From Planctomycetaceae bacterium (GTDB lineage: Bacteria > Planctomycetota > Planctomycetia > Planctomycetales > Planctomycetaceae): a stretch of DNA of 41,912 bases. The stretch's first letter is position 1; the number at the start of each line of letters is the position of its first letter. The stretch lies in the NCBI GenBank assembly GCA_014762625.1, contig JABURQ010000202.1, positions 1-41,912 of the forward strand, in the 5' to 3' direction. Below, in pieces: positions 36,677 through 41,170 of the stretch. The notes under the pieces were generated by a model that was not told the DNA's origin, did not search any database, and was given only the letters and a program-made list of their open reading frames with translations. The position numbers and the translations under genes were made by a program.

Positions 36677-37267
36677 ATGCTCGAAAAACTCTGGTTCTCG
36701 ACTTTAATTCGAGGTCTGTTAGCAATTCTTTTTGGTTGCTCCATGCTCTGGTGGCCGGGTTTGACGCTCAAACTGGTGATCATGGTGTTCGGTTTTTTCG
36801 CCGTGTTGGAAGGGTTTGCTCTCATTGGCGGTGCGTTGGCATTTCAAAATGAACATCCTGATTGGTGGTTGCCGCTGGTGACCGGATTCGGAGTTTTGAT
36901 TCTCGGGTTGCTCGCCTTTTTCGCGCCTGGGGTCACGGGACTGGCGGTGCTCATCCTGATCGCGGCTCGCTTCATGGTGGTGGGGGTTACAGAAATCATG
37001 CTCGCGGTCCGAATTCGGAAAGCGATTGTCGGCGAATGGTTCTTACTGGCTCAAGGAGCATTGTCACTATGCCTGGGAATTCTTCTGGTTGCCTGGCCGG
37101 GGGTGAGTGCGGTTGCGTTAGCCTGGTTGTTCGGGAGCCTCGCACTCTTCAGTGGAGTCCTGACAGTCATCATTGCTCTCCGCTTTCGTGGCGATCTTCA
37201 AAAAGTTCGACAACAGGCCGAAGAAGAGATGGGGTTTGCTGATTCGACGGCTCCCGACTCCCATTGA
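36677..37267 (+). CDS. HdeD/DUF308-family membrane protein
   Basis: The 196-residue protein has six membrane helices in three pairs (LIRGLLAILFGCSMLWWPG; VIMVFGFFAVLEGFALIGG; LVTGFGVLILGLLAFFAPG; VLILIAARFMVVGVTEIML; LLAQGALSLCLGILLVAWPG; LAWLFGSLALFSGVLTVII). The repeated xxWPG or FAPG turn between helices is the HdeD/DUF308 hallmark. Members help acid or stress tolerance in E. coli, but the general function is unknown. GAGGGGA precedes the ATG. It converges on the AroD-AroE-like gene with no spacer: the two stop codons form TGATCA. Confidence 0.9.
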   Translation: MLEKLWFSTLIRGLLAILFGCSMLWWPGLTLKLVIMVFGFFAVLEGFALIGGALAFQNEHPDWWLPLVTGFGVLILGLLAFFAPGVTGLAVLILIAARFMVVGVTEIMLAVRIRKAIVGEWFLLAQGALSLCLGILLVAWPGVSAVALAWLFGSLALFSGVLTVIIALRFRGDLQKVRQQAEEEMGFADSTAPDSH

Positions 37268-38725
37268 TCAAACCACCAGCTTATTCACGGCTTCGTCAAA
37301 GTCCTCGCGATTGAGAGTTTCTCCCGTGACGGCTTTGAACATGGCCGAGAGATAGACGAATCCCAGTTCTTCAGGCGGGATCACCTGCGCTCCTCGCGCA
37401 GAAGCTTCACGTGTAAATTCGGTTTCCAACGGTAGTTGACTGAAATCAGCGATCGTCATTTCCGCGCGGAAAAACGCCGGGTTGAGTTCGGATTTCCCGT
37501 GACCGGCTCTGAGCGATTCATCGGCGATCACAGCGACATCAGTGTAAGTATCGTACAAATTCATGAACGGTATCTGGCGAACTTTCATGACCTGAGCCAC
37601 CTGCTTAGCGGCGATGTCGTCGGGGGACGTCACGCTGACGACGCAATCGCGTCGATTCAGGCCGTAAATTAAACTGCGGGCGAGAGGGTTCGTTCCGAAG
37701 ACCAGCACGTTTTGTTTGCCGAGCGTCTTCCCCTGTTCGTCCAGAGAGCCCTCGATCGTTTTGAGCATCACGCGCCATAACAGATTGAATCCCTGCCATT
37801 GCTCTTTTTTTCGGAACAGAAGATCGCAGGCTTTCGACTCGCGAACCGCGTCTTCTTCATGATCGGTGAATTGATGAAGATCGAGATGGATGGTCGGATT
37901 GACGAACATTCCCGGAACTTTCAGAGTTTCGAGTCGCTTACGAATCTTGTCGAGTTGTCCGACTTGAAACGGCAGACACCGAAACGATGAACCAGTTCTT
38001 TCAAAACCCCGATTGAGAACCCTGGCCATCAGCGGCTGGGTTCGATCGTATCCCACTAAACCGATGAAGCGGGTTTTGGCCGTAATGCTTTTGAAATCGT
38101 AGAGCTCGGTGAGATCGAATGCGGAAGCCTGACCGTCAAACGCTTCCATTCCCTTTTCGAGCGCCGCGTACAACCAGGGAGAACCGTATTTTCGCCCCAA
38201 CAGCGAAAACGTGATTCCCGATTTGCCGATCCCCATCCCCACAACCGGAAGCTCTCGCTTATCGACGACCGCCTTCAGCAAAGGCCACGCATCCTCAAAA
38301 TGGGGAGTGGCCCAGGTAAACTTCACGACATCCGCCTTCGCTTTCCAGGCGGCATCGAACATTCCGTTCACATCGCCGATCGGTTGATCGAGACTCGTCA
38401 GGCTGATCACTCTTTTGGTCTCGCCGAAACGGGGAATTTTGGTGGCGGTTTCCAGGTCGAGTTCGACGTAATCGGGGCCGCTGATAATCGCCTGCCGTAA
38501 CAGAGCGATCCGTTCCTCCTCCGAGCCTCCGAATTTGCCGCCATCTTCCGGTGTGCGACAGGAGACGATCACCGGCTTATCCAGACCGTGCGTTAATTCG
38601 CCGACGTCCGGAGCCTTAATCAGTCGATCGAGACACAACTCGATCATGTCCGCATACCGCGAAGCGTTGAGCAGATCGACCTTCGCCAGATTGCGGGATT
38701 CCGGAGTGACGGAAATACAAATCAT
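37268..38725 (-). CDS. AroD-AroE-like fusion lacking most catalytic residues
   Basis: The 485-residue protein joins a type I 3-dehydroquinate dehydratase-like half (about 1-215) to a shikimate dehydrogenase-like half (about 218-485). In the first half the scaffold is clear: MIELCLDRL (Glu29), VIVSCRTPEDGGKFGG (Arg57), YVELDLE and DVVKFTW with the Schiff-base Lys135. Yet the catalytic His position (VISxH) reads VISLT (Thr110), and the Arg after the IS of the family pattern reads Ser174 (ITFSLLG). In the second half FIGLVGYDRTQPLMARVLNRGF, LPFQV and VLVFGTNPLARSLIYGL mark the fold. The catalytic Lys block (NVTxPxK) is MFVNPTIHL and NTD is NLLW. It may be a pseudoenzyme or a remodelled enzyme; alignments are by eye. 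Confidence 0.8.
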   Translation of the reverse strand: MICISVTPESRNLAKVDLLNASRYADMIELCLDRLIKAPDVGELTHGLDKPVIVSCRTPEDGGKFGGSEEERIALLRQAIISGPDYVELDLETATKIPRFGETKRVISLTSLDQPIGDVNGMFDAAWKAKADVVKFTWATPHFEDAWPLLKAVVDKRELPVVGMGIGKSGITFSLLGRKYGSPWLYAALEKGMEAFDGQASAFDLTELYDFKSITAKTRFIGLVGYDRTQPLMARVLNRGFERTGSSFRCLPFQVGQLDKIRKRLETLKVPGMFVNPTIHLDLHQFTDHEEDAVRESKACDLLFRKKEQWQGFNLLWRVMLKTIEGSLDEQGKTLGKQNVLVFGTNPLARSLIYGLNRRDCVVSVTSPDDIAAKQVAQVMKVRQIPFMNLYDTYTDVAVIADESLRAGHGKSELNPAFFRAEMTIADFSQLPLETEFTREASARGAQVIPPEELGFVYLSAMFKAVTGETLNREDFDEAVNKLVV

Positions 38726-38770: not shown

Positions 38771-41170
38771 TCAATCCGCCACACTTTCGGCGGCAATCTG
38801 GCGATAAATTTCGGCCGCTTTTTGATAGGCCGGTTCGGCCTGTTTTTTGTCCTCTGCCGAAATCAATCCTTGCTTGCTGTTCCAGCAGGTTTCCACCGCT
38901 TTCACACACCATTCCGCCGACCGCCGGGACGCCCGAATCGGTTGGTCCGCCACCTCGACAAAAATCGGGTTCGTATGACAGGAAGGGAGAATCCGAACCG
39001 CCACCCAACTGGAGTGGGGAATATCGATGTCAAATTCCAGCGGAATCGTTTTTCCATCCGCGACGATTTCCTGTTTCGCGACGACTTGTCCGTTCACAAT
39101 CACTTCGACGGGAACCTTGCGCGAATCACCGATCCGACAACGCTCGACGTTCCAGTACGGTTTTTCATCGAGTCGACGATTGCGGATCGCTTCCGACTTG
39201 GCGGTCGGTTCCGGCTCGAGGAACGCCGCCGCATCGAATGACACTTTCACTTTGCCCGGTTTCTCCAGATCGAGTTGACTGATTTTCCCGTCCGATCCCG
39301 GCTCCCCGAGAGCAACATCATTGACTTGAAAATCCATCAGGTGGCTCAGGCCGTCGCCGCAGTAGCTCCGACCATCCTTCACACCCGCCACCCAGTTATC
39401 GAAGGTGAACTCCTCGGAGTCGTCCAGCTTCACGTAGATGCGACCGAGGCCGACTTTGTCCCCGAAAATGCACGGAAAATCGGTCTCGCCGCTAATGCGG
39501 GCTTTCATGCCGCAATTCAGGGTGTGATACCAGATGTTGAGTTCCCAGATTGCCGGCGTATCGACGGCAGAAATGAAGTCGCAGACGCCGTGCGCCACGG
39601 TCACGATGTATTCATTCGCCCCGATGCCGTCAAAGCGGGGGACTTCGTAGTCGGGAAGTTTATAAGCCGCTCGGCCGCGGACTCCCTGTCGTCGGCGGAA
39701 GATCTCGATCCGTTCTCCATTATCGCCGTAATCGGGCAGAGCGAGCCCCCAGCCGCTGTGACTGTATCCAACGACCCCGTCCTGTTCCTGCCCCCATTTC
39801 AGAATCGGTAACGTCCAGGTCGGCCATTCTTCGATGTACGTGGTGCCTGGGTAGTCGTCCTCTTTGAGTCGTAGCAGACACAAATGCCCCGCGTGCGAGG
39901 AAGGAAAACCGCTCACCTCCACGTCGTACCGCATCAGGTATTCGGGAGTCGATAGTTTCGACACGTCCCCTTCAAAGTATTTCTTCTGCGTGTACCAGCA
40001 CGGTCCCCAACTCAGCACACAACCGACGTTCAAATCCTCTCCCAGAATGTGGCGCATCATGTCGGCGGGAGTGACACCTTCCGTCGGGGCATCGTAATGA
40101 GCACAACCGGCGGCGTGGACGTGATGATCGCCCGAGAACCAGTTCCGTTGCGCCGGGTAAATCCAACGTTCGAGCTGGAAGTCCAGACCGTGCGTCGGTG
40201 TGCCGTCGGGAATGGTGACTTCCGTCGTTTTCGTCAGGTATTCCGGACCGCGGGTCACTTCAAACGTGTAATTACCGGGCGGCAGGATTACCGACTCGCC
40301 GTCTTCCCGATAAATCTGTTCGTGGAAGAAAAAGTCGGGAGCCAGACGACGTGACGGAGCCGGATAGACGCGTCCCCGTTGATCTTTGATCACGAACGAC
40401 GCCATCGCCGGCTTCCCGTCCACATCTTTGACACCGAGCAGCACTTCCACAGCAGGAGCACAGTTGAAGAGGATCGGTAGTTCGTTGCGGAATCCGATGT
40501 CCTGCGTTCCCTGTCCGACATTGAAGGAGAGCTCGGCTTCCCGTTTTCCGCTGTCGCGGGTGTAGATTTGAAGGATGCGATATTCCAGTTCCAATCCCGA
40601 AAGTGTCGGTTTGAGAGGCTGTTTGTCGAACGTGGTCAATTCGAGGAACCGGTTGCCGGTCTGATTCGGACGGACGAGATCCGGATCATCGGCCAGCGGC
40701 TTCTGTCGCGGTCCGCGTCCCCGCTGATAAATGGGAGCGGCGTTCGGACTCTGGGCCACCAGTTTCGCCGTCACGCCCGCTTCGTTATGAACTTTGACCA
40801 GAAACGTCCGCCAGCCGTGCTTGATCAATTCTTTGGGGGCAGGTCCTTCGGCAACTTTGACGCGGCTTTCCGGGTTGATATTCACGCCCGCCAGACAATA
40901 TTTGTCGAGGACGTCCTGAATGCCGATGATCGACTTCGCGACATCGTCCATTTCCATCGCCTCTTTGAGGGCTGCGGAGTCTTCCTCGGTGAGTGGAGAG
41001 CCGACATACGTCAAAGCCGTTTCCAGTCGTTTCGTAGCCGCCACAAACGGCTGATGAGCGACGTCATCGACCAGAGGAAGTTCTGGACCCTGCGCGATGA
41101 GAGCTGCCGAAGGTAGAGCACAGAATAGCGCGGCGAGCAGGATAAAGTTCATGTTTCTTAAGCGTGGCAT
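38771..41170 (-). CDS. Exported CehA/McbA-like PHP-domain protein
   Basis: The 799-residue protein has an N-terminal signal (MNFILLAALFCALPSAALIAQ, about residues 7-27). After a long strand-rich N-terminal part comes an Ig- or carboxypeptidase-regulatory-like segment (ILPPGNYTFEVTRGPEYLTK, about 290-320). A PHP-type domain follows with GDHHVHAAGC (His349, His350, His352). Further likely metal ligands are the His in GYSHSGWG and in TVAHGVCD. CehA/McbA members hydrolyse phosphoester or carbamate compounds; here the substrate is unknown. The start at 41170 is supported by a strong GGGAGGA site 5 bases upstream. Confidence 0.82.
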   Translation of the reverse strand: MPRLRNMNFILLAALFCALPSAALIAQGPELPLVDDVAHQPFVAATKRLETALTYVGSPLTEEDSAALKEAMEMDDVAKSIIGIQDVLDKYCLAGVNINPESRVKVAEGPAPKELIKHGWRTFLVKVHNEAGVTAKLVAQSPNAAPIYQRGRGPRQKPLADDPDLVRPNQTGNRFLELTTFDKQPLKPTLSGLELEYRILQIYTRDSGKREAELSFNVGQGTQDIGFRNELPILFNCAPAVEVLLGVKDVDGKPAMASFVIKDQRGRVYPAPSRRLAPDFFFHEQIYREDGESVILPPGNYTFEVTRGPEYLTKTTEVTIPDGTPTHGLDFQLERWIYPAQRNWFSGDHHVHAAGCAHYDAPTEGVTPADMMRHILGEDLNVGCVLSWGPCWYTQKKYFEGDVSKLSTPEYLMRYDVEVSGFPSSHAGHLCLLRLKEDDYPGTTYIEEWPTWTLPILKWGQEQDGVVGYSHSGWGLALPDYGDNGERIEIFRRRQGVRGRAAYKLPDYEVPRFDGIGANEYIVTVAHGVCDFISAVDTPAIWELNIWYHTLNCGMKARISGETDFPCIFGDKVGLGRIYVKLDDSEEFTFDNWVAGVKDGRSYCGDGLSHLMDFQVNDVALGEPGSDGKISQLDLEKPGKVKVSFDAAAFLEPEPTAKSEAIRNRRLDEKPYWNVERCRIGDSRKVPVEVIVNGQVVAKQEIVADGKTIPLEFDIDIPHSSWVAVRILPSCHTNPIFVEVADQPIRASRRSAEWCVKAVETCWNSKQGLISAEDKKQAEPAYQKAAEIYRQIAAESVAD

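Follow-up and report, generated by a model that had tools for sequence, protein, structure and literature searches.

An AroDE paralogue of Planctomycetales with lost catalytic residues, recurrently paired with a CehA/McbA-type metallohydrolase gene

The window analysed here, a stretch of 41,912 nucleotides from a Planctomycetaceae bacterium (GCA_014762625.1, contig JABURQ010000202.1), carries on its minus strand a gene for a protein of 485 amino acids, referred to as B (37268–38725), which is an old paralogue of the bifunctional shikimate-pathway enzyme AroDE and not a decaying gene. B probably does a different job from the shikimate pathway. We tentatively favour the reading that it persists as a pseudoenzyme which binds a ligand and has a link to the hydrolase predicted from the upstream gene, M.

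Fold and active-site residues of the AroDE-like protein

B was delimited from its open reading frame, Pfam, alignment and a fold model. The dehydratase-like half, a DHQase-type TIM barrel, covers residues 1–209 (38099–38725, minus strand) and was identified by alignment and by a PF01487 match to residues 3–209 (E 1.4e-34, 120.6 bits against a cut-off of 22.2). The dehydrogenase-like half, an SDH-type domain, covers residues 216–485 (37268–38080, minus strand) and was assigned by alignment and model superposition, the AroE model being absent from the Pfam matches for the remainder of the chain. With phmmer, Arabidopsis AroDE (2gpt) aligned with residues 2–473 (E 3.5e-19). The fold was predicted for one B representative using AlphaFold2 with 27 B-type sequences (mean pLDDT 90.2, pTM 0.86), and the best-matching structure was Arabidopsis AroDE 2o7q, which superposes along the full length of the model (466 residues, Z 38.0, rmsd 2.2). 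The AroE fold is also present in the model, residues 213–484 superposing on 2hk7_B (Z 28.1, rmsd 2.1, 259 residues). Because of the alignment to 2gpt and the confident model matching 2o7q, B is an AroDE by predicted fold, which bears out the original prediction of an AroD–AroE fusion. NCBIfam scores of B fell under the cut-offs for aroD (59.5 vs 139.3) and for the bifunctional model (47.7 vs 598); the canonical copy of the same genome is also under both of these cut-offs, but over that of TIGR00507 aroE. A DUF308/HdeD-like gene (36677–37267, plus strand) converges on B with abutting stop codons (37267/37268), and the same layout was seen at one other locus (L078).

Active-site residues were read from an alignment of B-type proteins with E. 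coli AroD and AroE and with 33 canonical planctomycete AroDE sequences. The B set consisted of 84 different open frames, all longer than 430 aa; identical sequences were counted once, and the length cut removes the broken copy of genome G063. Arg213 is the substrate-binding residue of AroD that holds the substrate carboxylate, and Lys65 and Asp102 are the catalytic residues of AroE. In B of the window, Thr110 stands at the position of AroD His143, Lys135 at Lys170 and Ser174 at Arg213, while the dinucleotide loop reads GTNPLA (residues 344–349) against a Gly-rich loop; all of these lie where the original prediction had placed them. The AroE catalytic Lys and Asp, which it had called missing, are indeed replaced, by His280 at Lys65 and Leu316 at Asp102. 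Besides Lys135, the dehydratase-like half keeps Glu29, Arg57 and Gln199.

These losses are general in the family. AroD Arg213 and AroE Lys65 are each kept in 0 of the 84 B sequences against 33/33 canonical ones, AroE Asp102 in 0/84 against 32/33 (the exception being Glu), and AroD His143 in 2/84 against 33/33. The residue losses in both halves extend to the whole set for Arg213, Lys65 and Asp102, with His143 still present in two members. Loss of the Gly-rich loop is true of the window's protein, but part of the family retains Gly (position 128 of AroE in 36/84 and position 129 in 43/84, canonical 33/33). The two sequences with His at the His143 position, L095 and L123, are relatives of one genus and are likewise without Arg213. 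The Schiff-base Lys170, on the other hand, is kept in 81/84 B and 33/33 canonical sequences, with Arg in the remaining three, and the other equivalents of the AroD pocket are also retained: Glu46 in 84/84, Arg82 in 81/84 and Gln236 in 76/84. A type I dehydratase needs both His143 and Lys170, according to the account of this enzyme class in PMC9902378. That B has given up both known shikimate reactions is, judged from these residues, well supported.

Since the pocket residues are kept and the His and Arg213 are gone, B probably binds a small molecule without turning dehydroquinate over. As a pseudoenzyme, it would use the pocket inherited by its barrel (equivalents of Glu46, Arg82, Lys170 and Gln236) to bind a small molecule with a ketone or hydroxyl group; dehydroquinate itself would probably not be converted, with no His for dehydration and no Arg for the carboxylate. 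Position 110 is variable across the family and takes six residues (T, A, N, V, R or H), unlike a catalytic residue, which supports this reading. Counting against it, the frequency of Lys170 would also fit retained Schiff-base chemistry.

A close rival, nearly as likely as the pseudoenzyme, is that B catalyses a new reaction, in which Lys135, Glu29, Arg57 and Gln199 would act with different residues for acid-base catalysis; Glu190, a B-specific residue of the beta8-alpha8 lid, is one candidate. The substrate would then be one without the carboxylate of dehydroquinate, perhaps a product of the hydrolase M. The near-complete retention of the four pocket residues favours such an enzyme, as do Glu190, present in 83/84 B and 0/33 canonical sequences, and Gly192 (82/84 vs 8/33). 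Ser10, Asp17, Asn20, Trp147 and Arg383 are among the other residues near-invariant in B but seldom seen in canonical sequences; no His is found among the near-invariant positions of the 84 sequences, which speaks against a new enzyme. The catalytic face of the B barrel, defined from predicted strands and not from distances, showed no significant enrichment of B-specific positions (12/84 vs 11/125, p 0.26), a point against the pseudoenzyme reading. At position 48, Arg occurs in 19/20 B sequences of other families, and mostly Cys in the window's family (53/64).

Canonical enzymes, distribution and selection

The original prediction had allowed that the true shikimate enzymes might be elsewhere, and had proposed a search of this genome for separate dehydratase and dehydrogenase genes. 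This possibility is confirmed: the genome has, on a different contig (G000:C204), a canonical AroDE of 494 aa with the expected catalytic residues, adjoined by a frame read by eye as AroK-like, and a separate shikimate-dehydrogenase-type protein of 296 aa was found on a third (G000:C174); the search of the genome for a type II dehydratase found none. B is therefore not needed for the pathway here. A type II dehydratase was found in 0/100 genomes of the order, with a control search positive in 7/14 known genomes, and was rejected as the replacement enzyme.

At least one further AroDE-type place was detected at E 1e-10 in 137 of the 143 genomes that have B, and of 20 such places fetched 19 were canonical and one was an extra copy of B. 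In the other six (G065, G089, G122, G127, G137 and G138), which are among 13 genomes checked with PF01487, this model finds only B. These six assemblies comprise 80 to 1560 contigs, one of them is listed as 100% complete, three had no match to Shikimate_dh_N, and in the two searched for a type II dehydratase there was no match. Because of the many contigs and the three genomes also without a Shikimate_dh_N match, the missing canonical AroDE is probably due to assembly gaps.

Two further explanations bear on these counts. One is that B still performs the dehydroquinate dehydratase or the shikimate dehydrogenase reaction by means of substitute residues. B being the sole type I dehydratase found in these six genomes, together with the type II results, would suit it, but His143, Arg213, Lys65 and Asp102 are lost in 82, 84, 84 and 84 of the 84 sequences, the window's own genome carries the canonical enzyme, and the state of the six assemblies suggests gaps; we regard retained activity as very improbable. 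The other is that B is a non-catalytic partner of canonical AroDE, in a mixed oligomer or as a scaffold tuning its activity or stability. The co-occurrence of the two in most genomes and their common two-domain fold are consistent with a partnership, against which stand the six genomes, all multi-contig assemblies, in which no canonical copy was found, and the distance between the two genes, at least 63 kb in 11/11 single-contig genomes compared. Such a partnership is unlikely.

B was searched for in three samples of genomes. Within the order Planctomycetales, 143 of 150 sampled genomes have a B-type place at E 1e-60 or better and seven do not. In a sample of the class, 148/397 genomes carry B at E 1e-60; three other families account for 28 of these, and in one such family B is present in 23/95 genomes. 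In a sample of the phylum (294 genomes) the best place outside the class scored 155.9 bits, within the range of canonical copies. Relatives are named as Gimesia, Schlesneria, Planctomicrobium, Fuerstiella and Thalassoglobus neptunius (Thalassoglobus neptunius and Schlesneria belonging to Planctomycetales, Planctomycetaceae), with a few other names on metagenome bins. In a tree built by a quick method and rooted at the midpoint, in which the long branches L113, L063, L044 and L097 are unsurely placed, a branch with support 100 separates the 84 B from the 33 canonical sequences, B forming one clade. Either B is therefore no younger than the common ancestor of the families that carry it, or it has moved among them. 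It could be mistaken for a second AroDE. Extra, fast-evolving B-type copies were seen in two genomes holding another B (L063, G010:C41; L113, G429:C1). In four genomes of family f34 of the phylum (G337, G368, G387 and G405) two places of AroDE type were seen, the open frame at one of the two being shorter, about 340–370 aa.

Constraint was compared between the halves of B and of the canonical enzyme (A) in 17 two-copy genomes, giving 136 pairs. Mean identity of the dehydratase half was 0.68 for A and 0.659 for B, and that of the dehydrogenase half 0.565 for A and 0.413 for B; B exceeded A in 41% of the pairs for the former and in 4% for the latter. At a threshold of 85% of rows, conserved columns numbered 58 in B and 51 in canonical sequences for the dehydratase half, and 19 and 62, respectively, for the dehydrogenase half. 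The dehydratase half of B is thus about as conserved as that of the true enzyme and the dehydrogenase half less so, the former being a point in favour both of the pseudoenzyme reading and of a new enzyme.

For dN/dS, 14 B and five canonical pairs were chosen as close relatives, some sharing members; one B pair was saturated, and in the 13 computable ones values were 0.007–0.045 for the dehydratase half and 0.022–0.167 for the dehydrogenase half, compared with 0–0.035 and 0.026–0.067 in the five canonical control pairs. B is under purifying selection. Identity, conserved columns and dN/dS together argue that the barrel is kept for some function and the second half more loosely; in the pseudoenzyme reading the dehydrogenase-like half, its active site lost, would act as a structural or signalling partner. 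Most of the order has thus retained this old lineage, with its two halves under sharply different constraint, and B offers a case for testing how a catalytic barrel can be reused while its pocket stays conserved.

The same values contradict, for the family as a whole, the explanation that B is a pseudogene in decay or a product of assembly or frameshift errors. Individual copies do look broken: in the single-contig genome G063, B runs over three frames (L126, G063:C1:3295500-3299500), through recent decay or sequence errors, and stop codons interrupt the matched stretch in G134, G572 and G513. Against these stand the 84 distinct long open frames, dN/dS far under 1 in all the computable pairs and the pLDDT of the model, which leave decay with next to no likelihood.

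Among the three sequences with Arg at the Lys170 position, the close relatives L121 and L094 gave dN/dS values of 0.043 and 0.088, and M lies directly upstream of B in both (genomes G102 and G061). As this Arg-bearing pair is still under purifying selection, the Schiff base is not essential in that lineage, which counts against a new enzyme and tips the balance slightly towards a binding protein, even though the great majority of the family keep the Lys.

The neighbouring metallohydrolase gene

Gene M (38771–41170, minus strand) lies upstream of B on the same strand, separated by a gap of 45 bp, and encodes a protein of 799 aa with a CehA/McbA family metallohydrolase domain at residues 343–739 (NF038032, 276 bits against a cut-off of 80, E 4.4e-82). 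There was no Pfam match at E 0.01 and no PDB match by sequence at E 1. About 340 N-terminal residues lie outside the named domain, and 230 columns are invariant across 26 aligned relatives, all of which (26/26) keep the DHHVH motif (Asp348, His349, His350 and His352). M and most of the 26 have a hydrophobic stretch near the N-terminus, the starts being uncertain, and this stretch suggests that M may be exported. M resembles the CehA/McbA carbamate hydrolases in the NF038032 domain, the conserved DHHVH motif and the hydrophobic N-terminus of its relatives, and differs from them in its length of 799 aa and in the N-terminal residues beyond the domain. For CehA of strain CFD-1, the account in PMC8292978 reports four histidines that matter.

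The M set comprised 105 genomes with an orthologue of at least about 60% identity among the matches listed, paralogues of about 45–51% being left out. Among these matches, 20 of the 99 genomes with both genes, from 14 genera, have M upstream of B in the same orientation and no more than 2 kb away. The gaps were 33–1651 bp, and the widest case (G007) has an opposite-strand gene in between. G429, a genome of another family, gives one more case, with M 3.6 kb away from its second copy of B. A binomial chance figure for the pairing treats genomes as independent and is only indicative, the 14 genera being the fairer measure. Again among the matches listed, M falls outside the 2-kb range of B in the other 79/99 two-gene genomes, many of these having the two genes on different draft contigs; 44/143 genomes with B have no M orthologue of about 60% identity, and at least 6/7 sampled genomes of the order without B have M. 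For these three reasons the pairing is not obligatory, but M is the one recurrent partner of B that was found.

A first clustering of neighbourhoods had pointed to B being without a conserved neighbour; this was rejected, as a CehA-type cluster was present in 7/41 loci and proved recurrent on follow-up. A wider operon around the two genes was likewise rejected: around M, in 27 loci (20 near B, seven not), B was recovered in 19/20, and apart from these two genes the most widely shared cluster occurred in only 5/27. Clusters inspected by eye showed no other recurrent neighbours of B across genera, such as regulators or pathway genes; that pathway genes are not seen recurring near B weighs against a new enzyme, while the link to a predicted hydrolase weighs for it. 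That no regulator recurs there counts against the pseudoenzyme reading.

For B as a ligand-binding pseudoenzyme, the recurrence of M beside it suggests that the bound molecule may be a product or substrate of the hydrolase, and the pairing gives a concrete route to this ligand. B might sense, sequester or relay the M-linked molecule. If it regulates, a partner would be required, as Pfam lists no DNA-binding domain in B. A bolder and more doubtful possibility is a planctomycete two-gene module in which an exported CehA/McbA-type metallohydrolase would supply its product to a repurposed AroDE barrel serving as receptor or enzyme.

Comparison with known systems

No prior description of the B lineage was found by title or abstract start in the open-licence PMC literature on planctomycete dehydroquinate and shikimate metabolism. 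New here are the recurrent pairing of B with M and, as far as that literature goes, apparently the lineage itself; catalytically silent relatives of shikimate enzymes acting as regulators are already known in fungi.

The closest enzyme compared, the bifunctional AroDE of Arabidopsis (2gpt/2o7q), is like B in whole-chain fold and domain order and in the Schiff-base Lys and the equivalents of Glu46, Arg82 and Gln236. B differs from it in being without His143, Arg213 and the AroE Lys65 and Asp102, and in the window's protein the Gly-rich loop is gone as well.

For the fungal repressors QutR, GaaX and TanX, PMC10512348 describes a kinship to the last three domains of AROM and adopts the working hypothesis that such a protein, though catalytically inactive, can still bind an inducer. 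This precedent makes a reuse of B as an inactive binding protein plausible by analogy. As these repressors are described there, they would share with B a relationship to the DHQase and SDH domains, the catalytic residues of B appearing lost from its sequence; they are also related to the shikimate kinase domain, and each adjoins a transcription activator gene. B, by comparison with these descriptions, is set apart by having two domains only and a hydrolase gene as its neighbour. If the two-gene module were true, it would be a separately arisen bacterial counterpart of the fungal repurposing of AROM.
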